In this document: piece after piece, positions 43,215 through 57,680 of the stretch
How the letters are laid out: every line of letters starts with the position of its first letter
Position numbering within the stretch: the first letter of the stretch is position 1
From: Alitabrizicola rongguiensis
Lineage (GTDB): Bacteria > Pseudomonadota > Alphaproteobacteria > Rhodobacterales > Rhodobacteraceae
Direction of reading: 5' to 3'
Length of the DNA stretch: 64,000 nucleotides
Assembly: GCF_021491355.1 (NCBI RefSeq)
Contig: NZ_JAKENF010000001.1
Coordinates: forward strand, 744,001 to 808,000
The notes under the pieces: generated by a model
Database searches by the model: none
What the model saw: the letters and a program-made list of their open reading frames with translations, nothing else
What the model was told of the DNA's origin: nothing
Made by a program: the position numbers and the translations under genes

Positions 43215-45401
43215 ATGATGGATGGACTGCCCCTGACCCGCGATCTGGTGCTGATCGGCGGTGGTCACGCTCACGCGCTTGTCCTGCGCATGTGGGGCAT
43301 GAACCCGCTGCCCGGAGCGCGGCTGACGGTGATCAACCCGCATCCGGTTGCGCCCTATTCGGGGATGCTGCCCGGCCATGTCGCCGGCCATTACCGGCGC
43401 GACGAGATGATGATCGACCTCGTGCGTCTGGCGCGACACGCCGGGGCGCGGCTGATCCAGTCGCGTGCGACCGGCATCGACCGCGCCAATCGTCTCGTGC
43501 TGGTGGAGGGCCGCGATCCGCTGCGCTACGATATCGCCTCGATCGACATCGGCATCACCACCGACTTGCCGGCACTGCCCGGCTTCCTCGACCACGCTAT
43601 TCCGGCCAAACCCTTCGACATCTATTCCGAACGCTGGCAGCGTTTCGTCTCGGCCGACCTGCCACGGCCGCGCATGGTCATCATCGGCGCGGGGGTCGCA
43701 GGTGTCGAACTGGCGCTCGCGTCTGCGCACCGGCTGCAGAGCGAAGGCCGCTCGCCCGACATCACCCTTGTCGACCGCGATCCTCAGCCGCTTCGGATGG
43801 TCGGGTCAGGTGCGCGTCGGGCGCTGTTACGCCATGTTGCCGAGGCCGGCATCGCGCTTCTGGCCGGGGTCGAACCGGTCGGTATCACCGCCAGTTCCGT
43901 CATCCTGTCCGACGGTCGAGTCCTGCCTTCGGACTTCACGCTTGGCGTGGCAGGGGCGCGCCCGCAGAAGTGGCTGGAAGACACCGGTCTGGACCTGCAC
44001 CGTGGCTTTGTCAGGATTGACCCCACGCTCCGCACCTCCGATGCCTCGGTCTTCGCCGCTGGCGATTGCGCCGAGATGGTCTGGGCGCCGCGGCCAAAGG
44101 CCGGCGTCTATGCTGTGCGTCAGGCGCCGATCCTGCTACATAACCTCCGCGCGGCCCTGTCCGGCGGCGGAATGCGGCGCTACCGGCCACAGAGTGATTA
44201 TCTCAAGCTCATTTCAGCGGGCGGCAAGACAGCGGTCGCCGACAAGTGGGGGCTGCCGCTCGACGGCGCGTGGCTCTGGCGCTGGAAGGACGGTATCGAC
44301 CGCCGCTTCATCGCCATGCTTGCCGATCTGCCGAAGATGGCGCTGCCTCCCCTGCCACACCCCCGCGCGGAGGGCGTGGAGGAAGCCTTGGGCAAGAAGC
44401 CCCTCTGCGGAGGCTGCGGTGCCAAGGTCGGCGCAAGCGATCTTTCCGCAGCGCTGGCCGGTCTGCCCGCACCAAGGCGGCCCGACGTGTTGTCCGGCCC
44501 GGGAGACGACGCCGCGATCCTGCGCTACGAGAACGGTGTTCAGGTGATGACCACCGACCACCTGCGCAGCCTCTGCGATGATCCGGCGCTCATGGCCCGC
44601 CTGGCGGCCGTCCATGCGCTTGGCGATATCTGGGCGATGGGAGCGCAGCCGCAGGTGGCCTTGGCCCAGATCATCCTGCCGCGGATGTCGGCGCGGATTC
44701 AGGCCGACACGCTCCGCGAAATCATGGCTGCGGCGGCAGATGTCTTTCGGGCTGCCGGGGCCGACGTCGTGGGCGGGCATACGACGATCGGCGCCGAACT
44801 GACGATCGGTTTCACCGTCACCGGCCTTGCCGCGCGGGCGATCACCAAGCGCGGGGTCCAACCGGGCGATGCGCTGATCCTGACCAAGCCCATCGGCTCC
44901 GGCACGGTCATGGCCGCGCTGATGGCGCAGGCGCCACTGACCAACCCGCTTCTGGGCGAGGCCGCGGAGTCAGCCTCGCGCAGCATGGCGCGCGCCCTGT
45001 CCGACGACGCGACGATCCTTGCGCCCGAAGCCCATGCAATGACCGATGTCACCGGCTTCGGCCTCGCCGGGCACCTGCTCGAGATGCTGGAAGCCTCGAA
45101 CTGCGCGGCGGAACTGGATCTGGCGGCTGTGCCCCTGCTCCCGGGGGCAGAGGCGCTTGCGGCCACGGGTCAGGAATCGACGATTGCGCCAGCCAACCGT
45201 GCAGCGGCCATGGGGCAGATGCTGTTCACCGAAAGCCCAAAGGCCGCGCTGCTTTTCGATCCTCAGACCTGTGGTGGTTTGCTCGCGGCGGTCAACAAGG
45301 ACAAGGCCACAAGGCTGGTTGCCGCTTTGCGCGAAAAGGGCAGCCCGGCCGCGATCATCGGTAAGGCCGTCGAGGGCGCGCCGTTCCTGACCGTTACCTG
45401 A
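43215..45401 (+). CDS. selD: FAD-dependent oxidoreductase fused to selenide, water dikinase
   Basis: This 728-residue fusion has a pyridine-nucleotide-disulfide/Ndh-like domain at about 1-380: LVLIGGGHAHALVLRMWG, MVIIGAGVAGVELALASAHRL and SVFAAGDCAEM. The SelD domain at about 390-728 contains the catalytic cysteine region PLCGGCGAKVG, PGDDAAILR, DIWAMGAQPQVAL, and VTGFGLAGHLLEML. SelD makes selenophosphate from selenide and ATP. The oxidoreductase half may provide reduced selenium. The convergent mnmH gene uses the product, so the pair serves selenouridine in tRNA. The active residue is Cys, not selenocysteine. Confidence 0.92.
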   Translation: MMDGLPLTRDLVLIGGGHAHALVLRMWGMNPLPGARLTVINPHPVAPYSGMLPGHVAGHYRRDEMMIDLVRLARHAGARLIQSRATGIDRANRLVLVEGRDPLRYDIASIDIGITTDLPALPGFLDHAIPAKPFDIYSERWQRFVSADLPRPRMVIIGAGVAGVELALASAHRLQSEGRSPDITLVDRDPQPLRMVGSGARRALLRHVAEAGIALLAGVEPVGITASSVILSDGRVLPSDFTLGVAGARPQKWLEDTGLDLHRGFVRIDPTLRTSDASVFAAGDCAEMVWAPRPKAGVYAVRQAPILLHNLRAALSGGGMRRYRPQSDYLKLISAGGKTAVADKWGLPLDGAWLWRWKDGIDRRFIAMLADLPKMALPPLPHPRAEGVEEALGKKPLCGGCGAKVGASDLSAALAGLPAPRRPDVLSGPGDDAAILRYENGVQVMTTDHLRSLCDDPALMARLAAVHALGDIWAMGAQPQVALAQIILPRMSARIQADTLREIMAAAADVFRAAGADVVGGHTTIGAELTIGFTVTGLAARAITKRGVQPGDALILTKPIGSGTVMAALMAQAPLTNPLLGEAAESASRSMARALSDDATILAPEAHAMTDVTGFGLAGHLLEMLEASNCAAELDLAAVPLLPGAEALAATGQESTIAPANRAAAMGQMLFTESPKAALLFDPQTCGGLLAAVNKDKATRLVAALREKGSPAAIIGKAVEGAPFLTVT

Positions 45402-47871: not shown

Positions 47872-48570
47872 ATGACCCGCTGGATCGCAGCCGCACTGAC
47901 GCTGGTGATGGCCGCAGGCGCGGGCCTCGCGGAAGAAGCCGCGCCCGCACCGAAGCCCGTCAACCGCACGCCCGCGCAGATCGCGGCTCCGGGACCGGTG
48001 GGGCGCCTGGCCCTGGCGCAGGGCCTGTTTGCAGCCAGCCTTTCGCAGCGCGACCCGGTGGGGATGATCGCCGCCGCGCGGATCGCGCTGGCTGTCCCGA
48101 TGCGGGACAAGGAGCGCAAGGCGGAAGCCATCGCCCCGTCCGAGCCGGCTGCGGCAAAAAGCGGTACACCTGCGCAACCCTTCGACGCCGCTGCCATGCT
48201 GCGCGCCGCCCGGGCGCTGGCGGCCGGGGACGAGGCCGTGCTGGCCCAGGCCGATGCGGCAGAGGCGGAAGGCGCCGGTCAGGTTGTCGGCGGACCGGCG
48301 CGAACGCGGGCCAGGATCGCTCCGGGTGCCGAGGATCGCTGGACCATGGCATTCTACAGCGGTGAACTGGCCGAGGTCGCCATTCTGTCCGGCGGCGATG
48401 CCTCGCTGGAACTCACGGTCACCGATGGCGATGGCAATGTCATCTGCATGCTTCCAGGCGATGGGCCAGCCAGCCTTTGCGGCTGGGTTCCCGACTGGAA
48501 CGCGACCTTTACCGTCGCGGTGCGCAATCCCGGCCCCGCGACGGTTTCCTACTGGCTGGTCACCGATTAG
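47872..48570 (+). CDS. Secreted protein of unknown function
   Basis: This 232-residue protein starts behind GGGGAGACAAGGC. Residues 1-20 are a signal peptide (ends AGAGLAEEA), followed by a proline- and alanine-rich stretch. The middle is an alanine-rich helical region (MLRAARALAAGDEAVLAQ), and the end is a beta-rich domain (MAFYSGELAEVAILSGGDASLELTVTDGDGNVICM, then two further strands) with two cysteines that could pair. It resembles periplasmic domains that bind exported ligands, but I recognise no family. The stop overlaps the convergent dehydrogenase gene. Confidence 0.75.
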   Translation: MTRWIAAALTLVMAAGAGLAEEAAPAPKPVNRTPAQIAAPGPVGRLALAQGLFAASLSQRDPVGMIAAARIALAVPMRDKERKAEAIAPSEPAAAKSGTPAQPFDAAAMLRAARALAAGDEAVLAQADAAEAEGAGQVVGGPARTRARIAPGAEDRWTMAFYSGELAEVAILSGGDASLELTVTDGDGNVICMLPGDGPASLCGWVPDWNATFTVAVRNPGPATVSYWLVTD

Positions 48571-49571
48571 CCCAGCACTTCCGACATCGGGACCGTGCGC
48601 TTCTCGGCCGCCGACTTCACCGCAGCATCGGCGAGTGCCAGCGCGATCAGCCCGTCCTCGCCCGATGGCGTGGCCTTGCCCTTGCCGCCGATGGCCGCGA
48701 TGAAGCTGGCGATTTCGGCGGCGTAGGCATCGGTGTAGCGGGTCATGAAGAAGTCGTGCAGCGGCGGGCGGGTATAGCCGAGGCCTGTGGCCACCTCGAT
48801 GGAGACCGGGCGCTGGTTCTCGGCCGAGGCGAGGCCCTTGGAGCCATGCACCTCGATCCGCTGGTCGTAGCCGTAGGTCGCGCGGCGCGAGTTCGAGATG
48901 ACGGCCATCTTGCCGCTCTTGGTCTTCAGCATGACCTGGACCGAGTCGAAGTCGCCTGCCTTGCCGATCTCGGGGTCCACCAGAACGGCGGCCATGGCGG
49001 AAACCTCGGTGATCTCTTCTCCCAGAAGGAAGCGGGCCATGTCGAAGTCGTGGATCGTCATGTCGCGGAAGATGCCGCCCGAACGCTTGATGTACTCGAC
49101 GGGCGGGGCGCCGGGGTCGCGGCTGGTGATGACGACCATCTCGACCTCACCAAGCGTGCCCTTGTCGATCTCGGCGCGGACGGCGCGGAAATGCGGGTCG
49201 AAGCGGCGGTTGAAGCCGACCATCAGCGTGGCCTTCGTGGCGCGCACCACGTCGAGGCAGGCCTTGACGCGGGCGAGGCTCAGGTCGATCGGCTTTTCGC
49301 AGAAGATCGCCTTGCCGGCGCGGGCAAAGCGCTCGATCAGGTCGGCATGGGTGTCGGTCGGGGTGCAGATCACCACCGCGTCGATGTCCTTGGCCGCCTC
49401 GATCTCGTCGATGGTGCGGATGGCGCAGCCATACTGGTCGGCAATTGCCTGCGCCGCCTGCGGGAAGGCGTCGGCTACCGCGACGAGTTTGGCATTGCCG
49501 TCACCGGTGATCGCCTTGGCATGGACCTTGCCGATGCGCCCCGCGCCGAGAAGTCCGAACCTGATGGTCAT
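48567..49571 (-). CDS. iolG: Gfo/Idh/MocA family dehydrogenase, inositol 2-dehydrogenase-like
   Basis: This 334-residue protein has the N-terminal Rossmann fold FGLLGAGRIGKVHAKAI, the EKP motif (AIFCEKPIDLSLARV) near residue 95 and the catalytic-region sequence GGIFRDMTIHDFDMARFLLG near 165. These match myo-inositol 2-dehydrogenases and rhizopine-pathway MocA. It would oxidise an inositol, inosamine or methyl-inositol to the 2-keto form with NAD. It is the last gene of the minus-strand cluster containing an ABC transporter and an IolI/MocC-like isomerase, 15 bp after the SDR gene. iolB, iolC, iolD and iolE are not in the window. Confidence 0.88.
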   Translation of the reverse strand: MTIRFGLLGAGRIGKVHAKAITGDGNAKLVAVADAFPQAAQAIADQYGCAIRTIDEIEAAKDIDAVVICTPTDTHADLIERFARAGKAIFCEKPIDLSLARVKACLDVVRATKATLMVGFNRRFDPHFRAVRAEIDKGTLGEVEMVVITSRDPGAPPVEYIKRSGGIFRDMTIHDFDMARFLLGEEITEVSAMAAVLVDPEIGKAGDFDSVQVMLKTKSGKMAVISNSRRATYGYDQRIEVHGSKGLASAENQRPVSIEVATGLGYTRPPLHDFFMTRYTDAYAAEIASFIAAIGGKGKATPSGEDGLIALALADAAVKSAAEKRTVPMSEVLG

Positions 49572-49586: not shown

Positions 49587-50375
49587 TTACTCCGGGTAGG
49601 CCCCGGCGATGTTCTGGTCGAAATCGATCACGGCGCCGGTCATGACGCCTGAGCCGTCGGAGAGCAGGTAGCTGACCAGCCCGGCGACATGGGCGGGCTT
49701 GACCAGCATGCCGAAGGGCTGCCGCGCCTCGGCCTCGGCCAGCCAGCCGTCGGTGGCGCCATGGTATTTCTTCTGCACCTCGTCCTCGCCCGGCGTGTCC
49801 ATCCAGCCGCAGTTCACGGCGTTGACGCGGATGCGATTGCGGCGGAGCGCGTTGGCGGCGTTCTTGGTCACGTTGGCAAGTGCGGCCTTGCTGGCGGAAT
49901 AGGGGGCAAGGAAGCTTTGCCCGGCATGGACGACCATCGACAGGATGTTGACGGCCGAGGCCGGGTGGCCCTTGTCGACGGCAAGCTGCGCGAAGCGTTG
50001 CAAGGCGAAGAACGGCCCCCGGGCGTTGACGTTCATCAGGTTGTCCCATTCGGCGGGAGTCGCGGTCAGGATCGAGCCGCGATCGGTGGCCGCCGCCGCG
50101 TTGACCAGCGCGTTGACCCGGCCGAAACGGCTGGCGGCGCGGTCGATGAGCGCGATGGCATCCTCGGGATTGGCCATGTCGGCGGGCAGGTAGCGCACAT
50201 CGGCGCCGGTCCGGTCGCGCAGGCCCTTCGCCGCCTCCTCGCCCTTGGTCACGCCGCGCCCGGCGATCACCATCTGGCGGCAGCCTTCGGCAATCAGACG
50301 CTCGGCGATGGCCAGACCAAGGCCCTGCGTGCCGCCGGTGATGACGGCAACCGTGTTCACATGGGGATCAGGCAT
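49587..50375 (-). CDS. Short-chain dehydrogenase/reductase
   Basis: This 262-residue SDR has the cofactor loop VITGGTQGLG, NAAAA in place of NNAG, the active site NILSMVVHAGQSFLAPYSASK, and a C-terminal GAVIDFDQNIAGAYPE. The start overlaps the ATPase gene by 8 bp. Such SDRs occur in sugar and inositol operons and usually act on a secondary alcohol of a polyol or its keto form. In this cluster it may follow or parallel the inositol dehydrogenase. Exact substrate unknown. Confidence 0.85.
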   Translation of the reverse strand: MPDPHVNTVAVITGGTQGLGLAIAERLIAEGCRQMVIAGRGVTKGEEAAKGLRDRTGADVRYLPADMANPEDAIALIDRAASRFGRVNALVNAAAATDRGSILTATPAEWDNLMNVNARGPFFALQRFAQLAVDKGHPASAVNILSMVVHAGQSFLAPYSASKAALANVTKNAANALRRNRIRVNAVNCGWMDTPGEDEVQKKYHGATDGWLAEAEARQPFGMLVKPAHVAGLVSYLLSDGSGVMTGAVIDFDQNIAGAYPE

Positions 50376-51132
50376 AGGAGACTTCGCCGCCCTTCACGCC
50401 GGTGATGTAGCTGACGATGTCGTTGCCGTCGGTTTCGTCGCGGTTCAGCGAGGCGACGATCCGGCCGCGGCGGAAGACCACGATCCGGTCGACCAGATCG
50501 AAGACCTGCCGCAGGTTGTGACTGATGAGGATCATCGGCACGCCGCGTTCCTTCAGCCCGCGGATGATGTTCTCGACCTGCGCCGTCTCCTGCACGCCAA
50601 GCGCCGCCGTCGGCTCGTCCATGATGATGAGCTTGGAGGCAAAGGCGGCGGCGCGTGCGATGGCCACGCATTGCCGCTGGCCGCCCGACATGTTGCGGAT
50701 CGGGTTGTCGACGTTCGGAATCTTCACCGCCGTGGTCTTCAGCGCCTCGAGCGTGCGTTCGCGCATCGTCTTGCGGTCGAGCCACGAGAACGGCCCGAGA
50801 CGGAACTTGAACAACTCTCGCCCGAGATAGAGGTTCGACGGCACGTCAAGATCGTCGGCAAGCGCGAGCGTCTGGAACACGGTCTCGATTCCGGCCTCGC
50901 GGGCCTCGAGCGGGCCGGAATGGCTGACCTCCTGCCCGTCGAAGAAGATCTGGCCCGAGGTGCGCTGTTCCACGCCCGTCACCTGGCGTACGAAGGTCGA
51001 CTTGCCCGCGCCGTTGTCGCCGACGACAGCCACATGCTCGCCCTTGCGCAGGATGAAGTTCGCGTCTTCCAGCGCATGCACACCGCCGTAGCGTTTGGTC
51101 AGGCCACGCGTTTCAAGGATGATGTCGTTCAT
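50368..51132 (-). CDS. ABC transporter ATP-binding protein for an inositol-type compound
   Basis: This 254-residue protein is a single ATPase domain: Walker A GDNGAGKST near residue 38, signature MSGGQRQCVAIARA, Walker B LIIMDEPTAALG, and an H-loop ISHNL. Unlike RbsA-type proteins it is not duplicated, so two copies must pair. The start at 51132 is 5 bp after the permease stop. It energises the adjacent permease; together with the binding protein the set resembles inositol/rhizopine uptake systems. Confidence 0.9.
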   Translation of the reverse strand: MNDIILETRGLTKRYGGVHALEDANFILRKGEHVAVVGDNGAGKSTFVRQVTGVEQRTSGQIFFDGQEVSHSGPLEAREAGIETVFQTLALADDLDVPSNLYLGRELFKFRLGPFSWLDRKTMRERTLEALKTTAVKIPNVDNPIRNMSGGQRQCVAIARAAAFASKLIIMDEPTAALGVQETAQVENIIRGLKERGVPMILISHNLRQVFDLVDRIVVFRRGRIVASLNRDETDGNDIVSYITGVKGGEVSYA

Positions 51133-51137
51133 CTGCG

Positions 51138-52208
51138 TTACCCCCTCGTCCGCCGCTGCTGGCGCCACTGGTCAAGCACCACGGCGGCCACGATGATCAC
51201 GCCCTTCACCATCTCCTGGTAGTAAGCGTCGAGCTTGAGGAAGGTGAAGCCCGAGATGATGACGCCGAAGATCAGCGCGCCCAGCACGGTGCCGATGATC
51301 GATCCGCGTCCACCCGAAAGGCTGACCCCACCGATGACAGCCATGGCAATGGCGTCGAGTTCGTACATCACCCCCATGCCGGCCTGCGCGGTAAGGTTCT
51401 TGGAACTCAGAACGACCGCGGCCAGCGAGGCGAGGATGCCGGCAATCACATAGACCAGCACCTTGTGGTGATTGACGTTGATCCCCGACATCCGCGCCGC
51501 AGCCTCGTTCGAGCCGATGGCGTAGCAGTGCTTTCCGTATTTCGTGTAGGTCATGATGACGTGGAATAGGATCGCCAGCGCGACAAAGATCGCGACTGGC
51601 ATCATGCCCTTTCCGATCGCGGCATAGGATTCGGTCGGGAAGGAGATCGGGTTGCCGTTCGACCACCAGCGCGACAGGCCGCGGGCGGTCACCATCATGC
51701 CGAGCGTGGCAATAAAGGGCGGGATGCGCGTGTATGCAATCAGGCTGCCATTGATGAATCCGGCGATCAGACCGCAGCCAAGGCCGACAAGGACCGGCAC
51801 GATCACCGGCAGATCCATCGCCCAGTCGCCGAAGATGGCCTTGGGGTTTGGCTGGCCATTCACCATCGCGGTCTGGGCAAAGCTCATCGCGATCATCGCG
51901 GTGGCGCCGACGACCGAGCCGCTGGACAGGTCGATGCCGCCACTGATGATGACTTGGGTCACGCCTATGGCGATGACCCCCACGATTGACACCTGCAGGA
52001 TGATGATCGACAGGCGCTGCTGGTTGAACAGCGTGTCGATGTTGTCCCGCGTGTTGAACAGGAAGCTGTCGCCCATGAGAAGCCTGCCCAGGATCTCGAA
52101 GGCGGCCACGATCACGACCAGGGCGACCAGGACGTTGAGCTCCTGCGGCCGCGCCTTCTTGCCGGGATCATACTTGAGACCACCCAGGCCATGCGTCACT
52201 TGCGCCAC
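51138..52208 (-). CDS. ABC transporter permease, ribose/inositol type
   Basis: The start is the GTG at 52208, chosen because AGGAGGG lies 6 bp upstream; in-frame ATGs further up have no such site. The product has 356 residues with about eight to ten membrane segments. VTQVIISGGIDLSSGSVVG, AIGSNEAAARMSGINV and VIGGVSLSGGRGSIIGT are BPD_transp_2 signatures. It forms the channel for the ligand delivered by the binding protein encoded at 52320. Confidence 0.9.
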   Translation of the reverse strand: MAQVTHGLGGLKYDPGKKARPQELNVLVALVVIVAAFEILGRLLMGDSFLFNTRDNIDTLFNQQRLSIIILQVSIVGVIAIGVTQVIISGGIDLSSGSVVGATAMIAMSFAQTAMVNGQPNPKAIFGDWAMDLPVIVPVLVGLGCGLIAGFINGSLIAYTRIPPFIATLGMMVTARGLSRWWSNGNPISFPTESYAAIGKGMMPVAIFVALAILFHVIMTYTKYGKHCYAIGSNEAAARMSGINVNHHKVLVYVIAGILASLAAVVLSSKNLTAQAGMGVMYELDAIAMAVIGGVSLSGGRGSIIGTVLGALIFGVIISGFTFLKLDAYYQEMVKGVIIVAAVVLDQWRQQRRTRG

Positions 52209-52288
52209 GGCTTGCCCTCCTCTTCCACCCATGTCGATTGTTGCACATCCGTGCACTCGCGTCTTGCGCGCGAGCGACGGAAGATGGC

Positions 52289-52319: not shown

Positions 52320-53261
52320 TCAGTTCTTGGCGAGGTAGTCGCCGATATTGGCCGGCGTCACGAGTTCGAAGGGGATGTAGACCTTCTGGTCCACCGCTTC
52401 GCCCTTGCTGAGCTTCACGGCGGCATCGAGCGATCCCTGCCCCTGACCGGCGGCGTTCTGGAAGACCGTCACGTCCAGATCGCCCGCCTGCATCGCGGCC
52501 AGCGCGTCCTGCGTCGCGTCCACGCCGCCGACGACGATCGTCTTCATGTCAAGGCCGGCGGCCTTCATGGCCTGGATGGCGCCGATCGCCATTTCGTCGT
52601 TGTTGGCGATAACACCGTCGAAGGCGGTACCGGTCGACAGCCAGTTGGTCATCAGGCTTTGCGCTTCGTCGCGGCTCCAGTTGGCGGTCTGCTCGTCGAT
52701 GATGTTGAGCTTCACTTCGCATTTGCCGGCGGCGATCACGTCGTGGATGTCCTTGGTGCGCTGGACGGCGGCCTGGTTCGACAGTTCGCCCATCATCACA
52801 TAGACATTGGCCTCGGTCTTGCCCTGCTCTTTCAGCAGGCGGCAGACTTCGATGGTTTCGAGCGTGCCGGATTCCTCTTCGTTCGACGCGACGAAGGCCT
52901 GGTTGTCCGGCAGGCTGTCGACGTTGATCGGCTGGCGGTTCACATAGACCAGCGGCACGTTGGCAGCTGCGGCAGCGTCCGACATCGCCTGAGTTGCCGA
53001 GGTGTCCACCGGGTTCACGACGATCGCATCCACGCCCGAGGCGATGAAGTTGTTGATCTGGTCAAGCTGCTTGGCCACGTCGTTGCCCGCATCCTCGATC
53101 TGGACGCTGATGCCCGAGGCATCGGCATGGGCCTGGATGCCGTTGCGAAGCACGGTAAGGAAGTTGTCGTCGAACTTGGCCATGGACACGCCGACGTTCT
53201 GCGCCATCGCGGTGGTGCCCATCAGGGCGACAAGGCCCGCGGCCAGAAGGGTCTTCTTCAT
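52320..53261 (-). CDS. Periplasmic inositol/rhizopine-type binding protein (MocB/IbpA-like)
   Basis: This 313-residue protein starts at the ATG at 53261 behind GGAGGAGAGAAC. The signal peptide is residues 1-21 (ends TTAMAQ). The mature start VGVSMAKFDDNFLTVLRNGI and later VVNPVDTSATQAM, NDEMAIGAIQAM, VGGVDATQDAL resemble Caulobacter IbpA and Sinorhizobium MocB. It delivers ligand to the permease of the same operon. It is unrelated in detail to the two binding proteins of the left island. Confidence 0.9.
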   Translation of the reverse strand: MKKTLLAAGLVALMGTTAMAQNVGVSMAKFDDNFLTVLRNGIQAHADASGISVQIEDAGNDVAKQLDQINNFIASGVDAIVVNPVDTSATQAMSDAAAAANVPLVYVNRQPINVDSLPDNQAFVASNEEESGTLETIEVCRLLKEQGKTEANVYVMMGELSNQAAVQRTKDIHDVIAAGKCEVKLNIIDEQTANWSRDEAQSLMTNWLSTGTAFDGVIANNDEMAIGAIQAMKAAGLDMKTIVVGGVDATQDALAAMQAGDLDVTVFQNAAGQGQGSLDAAVKLSKGEAVDQKVYIPFELVTPANIGDYLAKN

Positions 53262-53336: not shown

Positions 53337-54155
53337 CTAGACCTTTGCCGCGGCGACCGATCTGTCGATGAATTCCATCGACGTTCGAAGGGCCGCCGCA
53401 GGATCGCGAAGCTCGTGCACCGAGGCGGCGAAAGGCTCGAAGCTGATCGGCCCGGAATAGCCAGCTGACTGAAGCGCGCGGATCTGGGCGATATTGCCGA
53501 GCCGGTCATCTGCATCCACCAGCACCCGGTGCCCGTCGCGCATCTCGCTGACGCTCAGTCCCCTGTCGACGACGCCCGACACATGGACGATGCCGGTATG
53601 CTGCGGGAAGATCGGCCCCCCGCCCGCAAGGTGATGGTGGAACGTGTCATGCACCAGTTTGTATGTGTCGGTTGCTCCAAGCGCTTCAATCACATCAACC
53701 ACATCGGCCTTGAACCGAAGGGAACAGACCTCGAAGCCCAGGGGTTCGACCATGGCCCTCAGGCCGTTCGCCCGTAGCAGAGGGAGCAACTCGGTTAGCG
53801 CCAGACGCAGGGCCGACATACGCTCTGTCTTGCCGGTTGCGATCCCGTCATTTCGGGGGATCAGGCTCACCGCCTCGGCTCCGGCGGCGACGGCGACGCG
53901 CATCAGCGCCTGAGCCTCGGCGCGCTTGGCATCGGACCAGTCGTTGAACATCTTGACTTCAGCAAGGGCCAGAAACCGCAAGCCGCGCTGCCGCAGCGCC
54001 GCGCCGACTGCGGCCGGATCGTCTCCTTCGAACAGCGGCCGACCAAGATCGTTGCGGTATTCCACCCCGACACATCCAAGCGCGCTGGCCAGATCGGCAA
54101 AGGCCTGCCAGCCCATGCGCGGCGTGGTCATGTGGTTCAGCGCGAATGGCTGCAT
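53337..54155 (-). CDS. TIM-barrel isomerase, IolI/MocC-like
   Basis: This 272-residue xylose-isomerase-like barrel starts at the ATG at 54155. VGVEYRNDLG lies near residue 35. Candidate metal ligands are the glutamate in MVEPLGFE near 147, LVHDTFHHHLAGG near 180 and the late glutamate in ISFEPFA. The sequence follows IolI (2-keto-myo-inositol isomerase) most closely; MocC is of the same fold. It would interconvert keto-inositols made by the IolG-like enzyme. It is the first gene of the minus-strand cluster, with an inverted repeat in its promoter region. Confidence 0.82.
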   Translation of the reverse strand: MQPFALNHMTTPRMGWQAFADLASALGCVGVEYRNDLGRPLFEGDDPAAVGAALRQRGLRFLALAEVKMFNDWSDAKRAEAQALMRVAVAAGAEAVSLIPRNDGIATGKTERMSALRLALTELLPLLRANGLRAMVEPLGFEVCSLRFKADVVDVIEALGATDTYKLVHDTFHHHLAGGGPIFPQHTGIVHVSGVVDRGLSVSEMRDGHRVLVDADDRLGNIAQIRALQSAGYSGPISFEPFAASVHELRDPAAALRTSMEFIDRSVAAAKV

Positions 54156-54263: not shown

Positions 54264-55298
54264 TTAGATCGACTCGGCGACGTGCAGTTGCGGAGGCAGG
54301 AAGATTTCGCCGATCCTCGCCTCGGCCTGACGGTTGAGAGCCGCATCGCCCATCGTCTGGAACAGGGCGCGGCAGAGGCGGTCGAGAGGCGTGTCGATCA
54401 CCATGTCCACCAGCCCTTCGGCCAGGCCGGCGCGCGACTCGGGCGTAAGGGCGCTGACGATCAGCGCGATACGCCCCGCCGCGCGTAGCTCGCGCAGCGC
54501 CGCGATTGCACCCTCCATCCCGCCGCCCGCGACATAGACGCCCCGCAGGTCCTGATGGCGAGCGGCCAGCGCCAGCGTCGCCTCGTAGGTCAGCTGCCGG
54601 GTTTCGAGGTTCACCATCGTGTCGGTGACATCCAGATGGGGTGCACATTCCCTCAGGAAGCTCCGAAACCCCGATTCGCGCAATTCGTGCCCGTGCCAGC
54701 GATGCCCACCAACGAACAGGGCGACCTTTCCGGGCTGCCGCGCCGTCAGTGCCATGAGCCAGCCTGCAGTCCTGCCAACCTTGAGATTGTCGAGCCCCAG
54801 ATAGCCGGCACGCACCGAAGGCGCGAACTCGGACAGGAGCGAGAAGACCCGCAGGCCCCGCGCGTTTAGGTCTTCGACCGCAGCCGTCACCTCGGGGTGG
54901 TTCACCGCCGTCGCGGCCAGGACATCGCATCGCCCTTCCATCGATCGCAGGAGGGCGGCCATCTCGGACGGAGCCTGAGACGCCGAGAATTCCAGCACCA
55001 GATGCGGGCGCGCCCAGTAAACCTCGGCCACGGCGCGATGCAGTTCTTGTGCGAATGCCTTGTAGAAGTCCTGGCCCTGCTTGTGGAGCACCACGCCGAA
55101 CCGGATCTCGGGCAGTTGCGCGGTGCCTGCAGCCCCGAGGCGTGCGGCGGCCGGATGACCGATCCGGTGCGCTACGTCGATGACATGGGCACGCGTTGCG
55201 GCGGCAACGGCCTGGCGACCATTCAGGAGCCGGTCGATTGTCGCAACCGAAACACCCGCGGCCTGGGCCAGCTCACTCATTCCGGGGCGGCGGGGCAT
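54264..55298 (-). CDS. LacI family transcriptional regulator
   Basis: This 344-residue protein starts at the ATG at 55298 behind TCAGGAGGTGAC. The N-terminal helix-turn-helix is MSELAQAAGVSVATIDRLLNG, with the hinge helix near residues 45-55. A periplasmic-binding-protein-like effector domain follows (RFGVVLHKQGQDFYKAF, VALFVGGHRWHGHELRESGF, GVYVAGGGMEGAIAAL). Rhizobial rhizopine loci use a GntR-type regulator (MocR), so a LacI type here is a different control. It diverges from the mocD-like gene by 150 bp and precedes the isomerase gene, so it probably controls both halves of the cluster. Confidence 0.88.
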   Translation of the reverse strand: MPRRPGMSELAQAAGVSVATIDRLLNGRQAVAAATRAHVIDVAHRIGHPAAARLGAAGTAQLPEIRFGVVLHKQGQDFYKAFAQELHRAVAEVYWARPHLVLEFSASQAPSEMAALLRSMEGRCDVLAATAVNHPEVTAAVEDLNARGLRVFSLLSEFAPSVRAGYLGLDNLKVGRTAGWLMALTARQPGKVALFVGGHRWHGHELRESGFRSFLRECAPHLDVTDTMVNLETRQLTYEATLALAARHQDLRGVYVAGGGMEGAIAALRELRAAGRIALIVSALTPESRAGLAEGLVDMVIDTPLDRLCRALFQTMGDAALNRQAEARIGEIFLPPQLHVAESI

Positions 55299-55448: not shown

Positions 55449-56540
55449 ATGGCACGACGCGATTACAGTCTGCTTGGGCCGGATGCGAAGCGTGCGGTAG
55501 AAACCGGGCTCGCGGCGGCGGAATGGTATCACACCGAAGTGCCGCGGAAGGACATGAAGGCGCTGATGCAGCGCTCCGACGGCCCGGCCATCCGCGACAC
55601 GATCCTGTGGTTGGGCGGCATGGTGCTGTTCGCCGGCATCGGGATCGCGCTTTGGCCCTCGTGGTGGTCGGCGCCGTTCTGGCTTGCCTATGGCGTCCTC
55701 TACGGCTCGGCTTCCGACTCGCGATGGCACGAATGCAGCCATGGGACCGCGTTCAAGACGCCGTGGATGAACGACTGGGTCTACAACATCGCCTCGTTCA
55801 TGATCCTGCGGAACCCGGTCACCTGGCGCTGGAGCCATGCCCGCCACCATACCGACACCTATATCGTCGGCCGCGACCCCGAGATCGCAATCATGCGCCC
55901 GCCAGTCTTTGCCAAGCTTGTTCTGAACTTCTTCGGCATTCTGGACGCCTGGAACGGCTGGGGGCGGATGCTTCTGAACGCCAGCGGGCGGCTTGATCCA
56001 GAGGAAGCGACATTCGTTCCCGACAGCGAGAAGCCGAAGGTTGTCAGTGTCGCGCGCATCTGGGTGGTGATCTATGCCGCGACCATCGGGCTCGCGCTCT
56101 GGATGGGGTCCATCCTGCCACTGATGGTCATCGGCCTTCCCCGGCTCTACGGCGCTTGGCACCATGTGATGACCGGGCTTCTGCAACATGGCGGGTTGGC
56201 GGACAATGTGATCGACCATCGCCTGAACAGCCGCACCGTCTTCATGAACCCGATCAGCCGCTTCATCTACTGGAACATGAACTATCATGTCGAACACCAC
56301 ATGTTCCCGATGGTGCCCTATCACGCGCTGCCGAAGCTCCACGCGATGATCAAGCACGACCTTCCGGCGCCGAACCGGTCGATCGCCGAGGGCTTTGCCG
56401 AGATGTGGCCCGCGCTGAAGCGGCAACTGCGTTACGAGGACTATTTCCTCAAGCGCGAGCTGCCGCCGACCGCCCGCCCCTACCGCGAGGATTTCCACCG
56501 CTCCGCCCTTGGGGAAGCGGGCGCGACCGCGGCGGAATGA
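55449..56540 (+). CDS. mocD: Membrane di-iron oxygenase of the fatty-acid-desaturase family, MocD-like
   Basis: This 363-residue membrane protein starts at the ATG at 55449 behind GGAGGAG. Three histidine clusters typical of the family are present: HECSH near residue 97, HARHH near 132, and HVEHH near 280. Hydrophobic pairs lie between them. It is followed after 28 bp by a MocE-type Rieske ferredoxin gene, the same order as mocD-mocE of rhizopine catabolism, in which these proteins are thought to remove the O-methyl group of 3-O-methyl-scyllo-inosamine. A methylated inositol substrate is equally possible. A ferredoxin reductase (MocF) gene is not adjacent. Confidence 0.85.
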   Translation: MARRDYSLLGPDAKRAVETGLAAAEWYHTEVPRKDMKALMQRSDGPAIRDTILWLGGMVLFAGIGIALWPSWWSAPFWLAYGVLYGSASDSRWHECSHGTAFKTPWMNDWVYNIASFMILRNPVTWRWSHARHHTDTYIVGRDPEIAIMRPPVFAKLVLNFFGILDAWNGWGRMLLNASGRLDPEEATFVPDSEKPKVVSVARIWVVIYAATIGLALWMGSILPLMVIGLPRLYGAWHHVMTGLLQHGGLADNVIDHRLNSRTVFMNPISRFIYWNMNYHVEHHMFPMVPYHALPKLHAMIKHDLPAPNRSIAEGFAEMWPALKRQLRYEDYFLKRELPPTARPYREDFHRSALGEAGATAAE

Positions 56541-56568
56541 CGACAGACCGGAACAGGGAGGAAAACCG

Positions 56569-56883
56569 ATGAACCAGTGGATTGATGCCTGCGCAACCGA
56601 CGAGATCGACGAAGAGGACCTGATCCGCTTCGACCACGGGGGCAGGACATACGCCATCTACCATTCACCTGAGGGCAAGTTCTACTGCACCGATGGTCTG
56701 TGCAGCCACGAGCAAGTGCATCTGGCCGACGGGCTGGTGATGGGCCACCTGATCGAATGCCCCAAGCACAACGGGCAGTTCGACTACCGCACGGGCGAGG
56801 CGAAGCGCGCGCCGGTCTGCGTGAACCTGCGCACCTACCCGGTGAAGGTCGAAGGTGGCCGCATCCTGATCGAGGTGGCATGA
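56569..56883 (+). CDS. mocE: MocE family Rieske [2Fe-2S] ferredoxin
   Basis: This 104-residue protein starts at the ATG at 56569 behind GGGAGGAAAACC. The Rieske cluster ligands are CSH near residues 46-48 and CPKH near 65-68, separated as in the CxH-N16/17-CxxH pattern. The rest is a compact beta fold with no signal peptide, so it is a soluble electron carrier. It probably passes electrons to the MocD-like oxygenase encoded just upstream. Its stop overlaps the start of the next gene (ATGATG), so all three genes are one translation-coupled unit. Confidence 0.92.
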   Translation: MNQWIDACATDEIDEEDLIRFDHGGRTYAIYHSPEGKFYCTDGLCSHEQVHLADGLVMGHLIECPKHNGQFDYRTGEAKRAPVCVNLRTYPVKVEGGRILIEVA

Positions 56884-57680
56884 TGGCGCGTCCGACGGTT
56901 CACGACCTTCTGGCCAGCCGCGGTAAGCACCAATACGCCATGCTGCGCGTCGACACGCTGGAAGAGGCCGAAGCGGCAGCCGAGGCCGGGGTAGAGCTTC
57001 TGTCTGTTCCGCCGTCGATGATCTTCGACCGGCGGTTCCGCGAAGTGGCGCCCGATGCGTTCGCCTTTCCCGGCGAGAACTTCTACGAGATCGGCGACAC
57101 GGCCGATTTCCTGAAATGGGCCTTCCCGCTCTACAAGCACGGCGCAGACGCCGTGTATTGCTCCGGTTCGCTGCGCACCGTGCAGGCGTTGGCCGAGAAC
57201 GCGATCCCGGTCTGTGGCCATGTCGGCCTGATCCCTTCGAAGCGCACCTGGACCGGAGGTTTCAAGGCCGTCGGCAAGACGCTGGAAACCGCGCAACTGG
57301 TCTGGAGCCAGGTCAGGGCACTGGAAGAGGCCGGTGCCTTTGCGGCAGAGATCGAGGTTGTTCCCCATTCCATAACGGCAGCGATCGCGGAAAGGACGAG
57401 CCTGTTCCTGATTTCGATGGGCGCGGGCCGGGGCGGGCATGCGCAGTACCTCTTCTCGGAGGATGTGCTGGGTGAAAACACGGGGCATATCCCGCGTCAC
57501 GCCAAGGTTTACCGCGACTTCGCCGCCGAACATGCCCGGCTCCAGCAGGAGCGGATTGCGGCCTACAGCGAGTTTGCCGGCGACGTCCACGACGGCAGCT
57601 ACCCGGCGCCGCAACATCTGGTCGATTGTGATCCCGATGTTGTGGATGCATTCCGCAACTGGCTGGACGATCAGGCCTGA
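56880..57680 (+). CDS. PanB-like (ketopantoate hydroxymethyltransferase superfamily) protein with altered active site
   Basis: This 266-residue TIM-barrel protein follows PanB in its second half: IPVCGHVGLIPSKRTW, GGFKAVGKTLETA, ALEEAGAFAAEIEVVPHSI and the late GAGRGGHAQYLFSEDVLG. The PanB metal and catalytic positions differ: GDS reads VPPSM and the lysine-glutamate pair of VKLEGG reads VYCSGS. It is therefore probably not a pantothenate enzyme. Start at 56880 overlaps the mocE stop; a second ATG follows 3 bp later. Its link to an O-demethylating pair suggests handling of the one-carbon unit or of a keto-sugar aldol, but this is inference. Confidence 0.7.
   Translation: MMARPTVHDLLASRGKHQYAMLRVDTLEEAEAAAEAGVELLSVPPSMIFDRRFREVAPDAFAFPGENFYEIGDTADFLKWAFPLYKHGADAVYCSGSLRTVQALAENAIPVCGHVGLIPSKRTWTGGFKAVGKTLETAQLVWSQVRALEEAGAFAAEIEVVPHSITAAIAERTSLFLISMGAGRGGHAQYLFSEDVLGENTGHIPRHAKVYRDFAAEHARLQQERIAAYSEFAGDVHDGSYPAPQHLVDCDPDVVDAFRNWLDDQA

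Follow-up and report, generated by a model that had tools for sequence, protein, structure and literature searches.

PanBL, a PanB-like gene behind mocD and mocE

What might a protein with the fold of PanB do directly behind the genes of an oxygenase and its ferredoxin, at a place where no pantothenate genes lie beside it? The gene in question, here termed PanBL (divergent PanB-fold protein), occupies positions 56880–57680 on the plus strand of the window, i.e., the whole 64-kb stretch of DNA analysed, and encodes 266 aa plus stop. Its open reading frame is real and, as a first reading of the sequence alone (hereafter the sequence-only reading) had stated, overlaps mocE: the start ATG and the stop of mocE form ATGA at 56880–56883. 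A second ATG stands at 56883.

Upstream on the plus strand lie mocE (56569–56883), coding for a Rieske 2Fe-2S ferredoxin of the MocE family (104 aa; TIGR02377, 174.1 bits, cut-off 136.15), and mocD (55449–56540), coding for a membrane oxygenase of the fatty-acid-desaturase type (363 aa; PF00487, 1.9e-35). Divergent from mocD, the minus strand carries a LacI-type regulator (54264–55298, profile match), a TIM barrel of the sugar isomerase/epimerase type (AP_endonuc_2, 53337–54155; PF01261, 2e-20), a sugar ABC transporter consisting of a substrate-binding protein (52320–53261, MglB/RbsB type, below equivalog cut-offs), a permease (51138–52256, MglC type, below cut-off, start uncertain) and an ATPase (50368–51132, below equivalog cut-offs), a short-chain dehydrogenase (49587–50375; NF004847, 344.1 bits, cut-off 240) and the inositol 2-dehydrogenase IolG (48567–49571; TIGR04380, 421.2 bits, cut-off 355). 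LacI regulators adjoining rhizobial mocD appear in the accessible parts of PMC3538637 and PMC11387232.

The adjacency of MocD oxygenase and MocE ferredoxin is that of a mocDEF-type module, and three rhizobial plasmids put PanBL directly after mocF. Unlike the rhizopine mocDEF module, the window lacks a MocR relative and has MocE followed by PanBL without an intervening reductase: profile search found no MocF ferredoxin reductase in the run 55449–57680, the sole FdR-profile match in the window being weak and located at 43215–45401, and relatives of purU, folD and MocR were absent from the 64 kb at E 1e-8. The step carried out by MocDEF is presumably the removal of the O-methyl group from 3-O-methyl-scyllo-inosamine.

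The accessible part of PMC10107442 assigns mocDEF to rhizopine catabolism and, like that of PMC3538637, describes it without a PanB-like gene; the words panB and hydroxymethyl do not occur in PMC3538637, nor panB and folate in PMC10107442. The mocC and mocD of PMC6341043 are, according to the portion available, mannopine genes of another function. Open-access titles and abstract openings yielded no work on a PanB-like protein together with MocDE or demethylation, which is no proof of novelty.

Fold and active site of PanBL

By sequence, PanBL matches PF02548 (6.8e-34) within residues 77–243, and against the PanB equivalog TIGR00222 it scores 94.4 bits, below the cut-off of 207.55; two plasmid-borne relatives (L242, L244) reach 103–104 bits. 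The initial claim that the second half of the PanB fold is kept describes this C-terminal sequence match, but not the predicted structure. An AlphaFold2 model (mean pLDDT 89.1, pTM 0.79; loop 120–127 below 50) has PanB 1m3u as its best Foldseek match (E 1e-16), and a VIA comparison with PanB 1o68 gave Z 24.6 (211 aligned, rmsd 3.1), the best non-PanB row having Z 15.8. Since the model aligns with solved PanB across residues 3–218, the entire PanB fold is retained; by the same model, a half protein can be ruled out. PanBL also has the motifs of the C-terminal half in common with PanB, together with the equivalents of His136 and Glu181. Differences from PanB, besides the score below cut-off, are the replacement of Asp45, Asp84, Glu114 and Lys112 and the loss of about 19 residues after strand 2 in the sequence alignment.

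For the active site, 130 PanBL sequences (L044 lies outside this set) were compared with 31 canonical PanB sequences. Lys112, Glu114, His136 and Glu181 were numbered by counting along a pairwise alignment with E. coli PanB, and Asp45 and Asp84 carry what we take to be their E. coli numbers. In PanB, Asp45, Asp84 and Glu114 are the Mg ligands, Lys112 is an active-site residue, and His136 and Glu181 form a pair in the active site. Where PanB has the metal-binding motif VGDSx, the window protein reads VPPSM (residues 43–47; 57006–57020, plus strand), with Pro for Asp45, and VKxEGG is replaced by VYCSGS (residues 92–97; 57153–57170, plus strand), with Tyr for Lys112 and Ser for Glu114; both motifs are as first read. 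Throughout the 130 PanBL, the Asp45 position is Pro in 93 (Asp in 31/31 canonical), the Asp84 position Gly in 115, as in the window protein, the Lys112 position Tyr (Tyr93) in 117, and the Glu114 position Ser (Ser95) in 88 and Ala in 23. Canonical PanB retains each of the four residues in 30–31 of the 31 sequences.

The sequence-only reading, which had the metal-binding and Lys/Glu positions changed, was right for Lys112 and Glu114, but PanBL keeps the equivalents of Glu181, present in 130/130 PanBL and 31/31 canonical sequences (Glu159 in the window; 57354–57356, plus strand), and of His136, present in 129/130 and 31/31 (His114; 57219–57221, plus strand). Further conserved in PanBL are Glu157, Phe192 and His207 (each 130/130), Thr123 (128/130) and Trp124 (126/130). 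Judged from the aligned sequences, most PanBL have lost the metal/Lys site, but the active-site His/Glu pair persists. As Asp45, Asp84, Glu114 and Lys112 are replaced in most PanBL, Mg-mediated binding of a keto acid is unlikely.

Loss of the metal ligands and the lysine, with genes that overlap or adjoin, would also suit a PanB that no longer catalyses anything and supports the membrane oxygenase or the ferredoxin in a structural or regulatory role. We consider this quite unlikely, because His136, Glu181, Glu157, His207, Phe192, Thr123 and Trp124 are strongly conserved, PanBL remains where the oxygenase family changes, and mocD/mocE modules without PanBL exist.

A role in pantothenate synthesis is highly improbable

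The window genome contains four PF02548 genes, one canonical panB and three PanBL. Its canonical PanB scores 356.7 bits (PF02548) and 314 bits (TIGR00222), and the gene adjoins panC (TIGR00018, 290.1 bits, cut-off 212.75). The two other PanBL genes of this genome (L091:11215-12021 and L092:10619-11461) lie in MocD operons with other transporters, one ordered MocD-MocE-PanBL, the other MocD-PanBL.

PanB was searched in 40 genomes, 36 of which have PanBL, as four had a canonical-like paralog, PanB2, as their sole survey match. Within these 36, PanB over cut-off is present in 27; seven of the other nine are also without panC, one of them (G433) with a PanBL remnant. A phylogenetic tree parts PanBL from canonical PanB plus PanB2 by a branch with 100/100 support; its rows represent 57 of the 130 PanBL (a single sequence for each cluster at 80% identity, without L152 and L190), 12 of the 31 canonical sequences and four PanB2.

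That PanBL is a working ketopantoate hydroxymethyltransferase, as its database label says, is hardly credible. The PanB fold with its C-terminal half is present, and two PanBL genomes (G229, G366) have panC but no PanB over cut-off. Against this stand a score of 94 versus 207.55 bits, the loss of ligands and Lys112, and the 27 of 36 genomes that have PanB besides, with seven of the remaining nine lacking panC. A pantothenate function was therefore rejected on the score, the altered site and the PanBL genomes without panB and panC. The annotation 3-methyl-2-oxobutanoate hydroxymethyltransferase, found for example in plasmid records, is no guarantee of a role in making vitamin B5.

The PanBL remnant of G433 (L190:9551-10144) matches in its C-terminal part only, in a genome without over-cut-off panB and without panC. 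The PanB2 clade was set apart as canonical-like and comprises the class-sample matches of G185, G064, G357 and G310 (L126:9870-10745, L127:9286-10530, L128:150-1058 and L129:9912-10847). It retains Asp45 and Lys112, whereas Asp84 is exchanged for Ser and Glu114 for Gln, and it scores above the TIGR00222 cut-off; L129 has a Rieske-oxygenase-profile match directly after PanB2. The second match of L165 was reassigned to the canonical set.

Linkage of PanBL to mocD and mocE

Among the nearest relatives of the window protein (the best 80 of at least 515 found), mocD and/or mocE lie less than 3 kb from PanBL, and on its strand, at all 80 loci, mocD at 77 and mocE at 77. Three loci have no mocD: L040 and L065 begin at a contig end, which falls shortly before mocE, and L058 has an FA_hydroxylase in its place. 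FdR lies within 3 kb in eight of these best 80. Canonical panB served as control, with 30 loci drawn from 39 listed matches over cut-off; as these loci extend about 1.4 kb per side, less at contig ends, the comparison is valid at that distance. At 1.4 kb, mocD and/or mocE accompany 80/80 of the best 80 relatives (of at least 515) versus 0/30 canonical loci, none of which has any tested partner. The linkage of PanBL to mocD/mocE is not due to chance. The profiles behind the neighbour counts were built from these same loci, and those for Rieske oxygenase, PhyH and FA_hydroxylase were each made from four sequences, so further members will escape them.

The class, sampled evenly at 385 genomes, gave a match (E 1e-40) in 25 of them, and in 21 once the four PanB2 are removed. 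With same-strand genes up to 3 kb away counted as partners, and the three loci of the window genome itself excluded, 22 loci have MocD in eight cases, MocD or MocE in nine, any tested oxygenase in 11, and no tested partner in ten. One partnerless locus (L152) begins at a contig end, and another (L159) has two PhyH genes, both encoded on the other strand. The expected mocD/mocE neighbourhood is thus borne out in the close relatives, 80/80 of the best 80 of at least 515, but in the class sample, with its more distant relatives, MocD or MocE accompanies just 9/22, which in part goes against it. By the same definition, 9 of the 57 tree rows have no tested partner. A PanBL subclade (L161–L164, L168 and kin) carries an N-terminal stretch of the MASHATGDG type, and most of its members are without a tested partner.

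A phylum sample of 398 genomes yielded 20 loci, 15 of them from one family code (f174), with MocD in 14 and an oxygenase or MocE in 18. None of the 19 positive genomes in this sample lies outside Alphaproteobacteria, which does not prove that other classes lack PanBL.

Viewed from mocE, 11 of the 385 class genomes have MocE over cut-off, and seven of these have PanBL, versus about 0.6 expected from the product of the frequencies. PanBL adjoins 6 of the 13 over-cut-off MocE loci in this sample, and a Burkholderia cenocepacia plasmid carries mocDEF plus iolG without PanBL. No substitute one-carbon gene was found among the genes tested in 11 loci where mocDE lacks PanBL. Three loci lacking PanBL (L239–L241) have a conserved 432-residue gene between MocD and MocE. 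On pSymB of S. meliloti ml45 (L192:5962-7030), the mocD match consists of two overlapping pieces in different frames, and the record table lists no mocD there.

The oxygenase beside PanBL changes

Six PanBL loci (L058, L187, L188, L193, L194, L195) have an FA_hydroxylase and no MocD, and L158 has both; all seven FA_hydroxylases match PF04116, and 4/4 distant MocD-like proteins match PF00487. Two of the three plasmid loci with FA_hydroxylase also have a 2Fe-2S protein and a FAD reductase, the 2Fe-2S protein of L193 being of the Fer2 type. Among the relatives of the MASHATGDG-type subclade, L166 and L169 have PhyH next to PanBL, and L165 has a Rieske oxygenase there. On the PanBL tree, MocD and FA_hydroxylase were exchanged six times with PanBL constant, counted over 37 rows with MocD and no FA_hydroxylase (one also with PhyH), six with FA_hydroxylase and no MocD, and two with PhyH alone; L158 was omitted.

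As the oxygenases are exchanged while PanBL stays, the pattern points to a common product rather than to one substrate or one oxygenase. The job of PanBL may thus be tied to a common trait of these oxygenases. A plausible candidate is the one-carbon unit set free by oxidative demethylation, on the assumption that each of these enzymes demethylates.

This bears on the idea, also raised in the sequence-only reading for a keto-inositol, that PanBL works as an aldolase or lyase on what is left after demethylation, be it a keto-inositol or a sugar. Its TIM-barrel fold is common to enzymes of the PEP mutase/isocitrate lyase type, and cyclitol and sugar genes are close by. Yet the keto-acid-binding metal site of PanB is gone in most PanBL, the other operon partners vary (taurine-type ABC genes, ribokinase, family 4 glycosidase), and what recurs is an oxygenase and, in some loci, folate genes. 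With such varied oxygenases, transporters and sugar genes around PanBL, we regard the aldolase alternative as disfavoured and rather improbable.

Folate genes and the rhizopine gene set

Near PanBL, PurU was found in 7 of 128 loci (2.26 Mb), always within 3 kb centre to centre and in six cases on the same strand. These events are few, with three changes on the tree, and L053–L056 are close kin. Queries from E. coli found no FolD, FrmA, FrmB, MetF, GlyA or GcvT near PanBL in the 128 loci, and an alphaproteobacterial FolD query likewise found none there.

Plasmids provide a clearer picture. An Agrobacterium tumefaciens plasmid has the order mocD-mocE-FAD reductase-PanBL-purU-folD, as has Rhizobium sp. 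NXC24, and PanBL-purU-folD was matched at 80% or more in one place in 14 plasmid records, near-duplicates among them; NCBIfam confirmed the identities of the plasmid PurU and FolD. P. zundukense Tri-48 and R. leguminosarum A1 have the order MocA, MocB, then MocR, mocD, mocE, mocF, PanBL, purU and a FolD match, the latter with 66% over 298 residues in one case and weaker and partial in the other. S. meliloti KH35c pSymA preserves this order as far as purU. The names MocA, MocB and MocR follow the sequence of the genes and their protein families (GFO/IDH/MocA, periplasmic sugar binding, GntR-aminotransferase); mocA, mocB, mocR and mocDEF form the rhizopine catabolism gene set in the accessible part of PMC10107442. 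S. meliloti 1021 and Rhizobium sp. SRDI969 have mocDEF-PanBL, with purU and folD absent from the stretch fetched.

In rhizobial plasmid records, purU and folD often stand together with no PanBL in the stretch matched, which makes them a one-carbon module of general use. Methyl-derived one-carbon units pass through folate in purU-folD demethylation modules and with demethylases of the GcvT type (DmdA), where FolD and PurU finish the pathway. PanBL differs from the GcvT-type demethylases in having the PanB fold, and no GcvT lies near it by E. coli query.

A possible role in one-carbon transfer

Taken together, we slightly favour the reading that PanBL transfers the one-carbon unit released by demethylation onto tetrahydrofolate (THF). 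The coupling of a PanB-like protein to an O-demethylase through folate, as first proposed, is partly supported: purU or purU-folD lies directly downstream of PanBL in several lineages, some with the rhizopine gene set, and PanBL is kept where panB and panC are missing. The catalytic step is our deduction. The wider claim, that PanBL handles one-carbon units in connection with oxidative demethylation, is more likely than the full THF statement.

The oxygen-dependent MocD/MocE-type enzymes probably demethylate plant sugars. An O-methylated cyclitol, either an O-methyl-inositol or a rhizopine-like compound, would be imported; for the window, this substrate is a guess based on the presence of IolG and a sugar transporter. 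The O-methyl group would be hydroxylated by MocD, which MocE would supply with electrons, and the resulting hydroxymethyl ether would decay to free inositol, the substrate of IolG, and formaldehyde. PanBL may then take formaldehyde, or the hydroxymethyl group prior to its release, onto THF to give 5,10-methylene-THF. FolD and PurU could convert the latter to formate and recycle THF; their genes adjoin PanBL in some relatives and would be located elsewhere in the genome in others. For PanBL itself, we infer the substrate, the binding of folate and the condensation or transfer step.

In favour of the THF reading we counted the retention of PanBL in seven genomes without panB and panC, one as a remnant, and, in relatives, the genetic link to THF enzymes seen as purU in 7/128 loci and as purU-folD on plasmids. 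Counted against it were that both genes are missing from the 64-kb window and from the vicinity of most PanBL loci, that many mocDE modules lack PanBL, that 10/22 class loci are partnerless, and that one subclade is mostly without conserved neighbours. The same oxygenase linkage, and the many loci without purU/folD, would also fit a PanBL that acts on formaldehyde or the hydroxymethyl hemiacetal without folate, either splitting the hemiacetal or using another acceptor, e.g., a thiol. However, purU and folD adjoin PanBL in several lineages, and frmA and frmB were not found near it with E. coli queries, and we therefore hold a folate-free reaction to be unlikely.

Within the THF reading, PanBL could tentatively be a natural, THF-specific formaldehyde-fixing enzyme that has given up the keto-acid/metal site, perhaps with direct transfer from the hemiacetal and no free formaldehyde; we find this conceivable, though somewhat doubtful. 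The reaction of formaldehyde with THF is given as spontaneous in PMC8879981, and the spontaneous condensation as too slow for growth in PMC7073904. The latter names PanB as a possible promiscuous catalyst, but deletion of panB plus ltaE in its E. coli strain was without effect; thus, on this part of the paper, E. coli PanB does not visibly catalyse the condensation. PanB acting on methylene-THF is discussed in the accessible part of PMC4814558. Given the slow spontaneous reaction, the idea of PanB promiscuity and the discussion of methylene-THF in these excerpts, a PanB derivative specialised for the formaldehyde-THF step is plausible, albeit unproven.

The job proposed for PanBL, faster capture of formaldehyde by a carrier, is like that of Fae (tetrahydromethanopterin) and Gfa (glutathione), with different carriers. 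If true, PanBL would be the THF counterpart of the tetrahydromethanopterin-dependent Fae, and it is a concrete natural candidate for formaldehyde fixation on THF. It would add a step to the catabolism of rhizopine and methyl-inositol, and would belong to a family of O2-dependent demethylation modules across Alphaproteobacteria, from large rhizobial to small low-GC genomes.

Two observations on small genomes may be added. Loci L154–L156 (G337, G030, G259) come from low-GC genomes of 1.4 Mb and consist of a bare MocD-PanBL pair, the two genes overlapping or at most 6 bases apart. In the 1.6 Mb genome G161 (L158–L160), four PanBL genes are spread over three places, where MocD, FA_hydroxylase and PhyH genes also occur.
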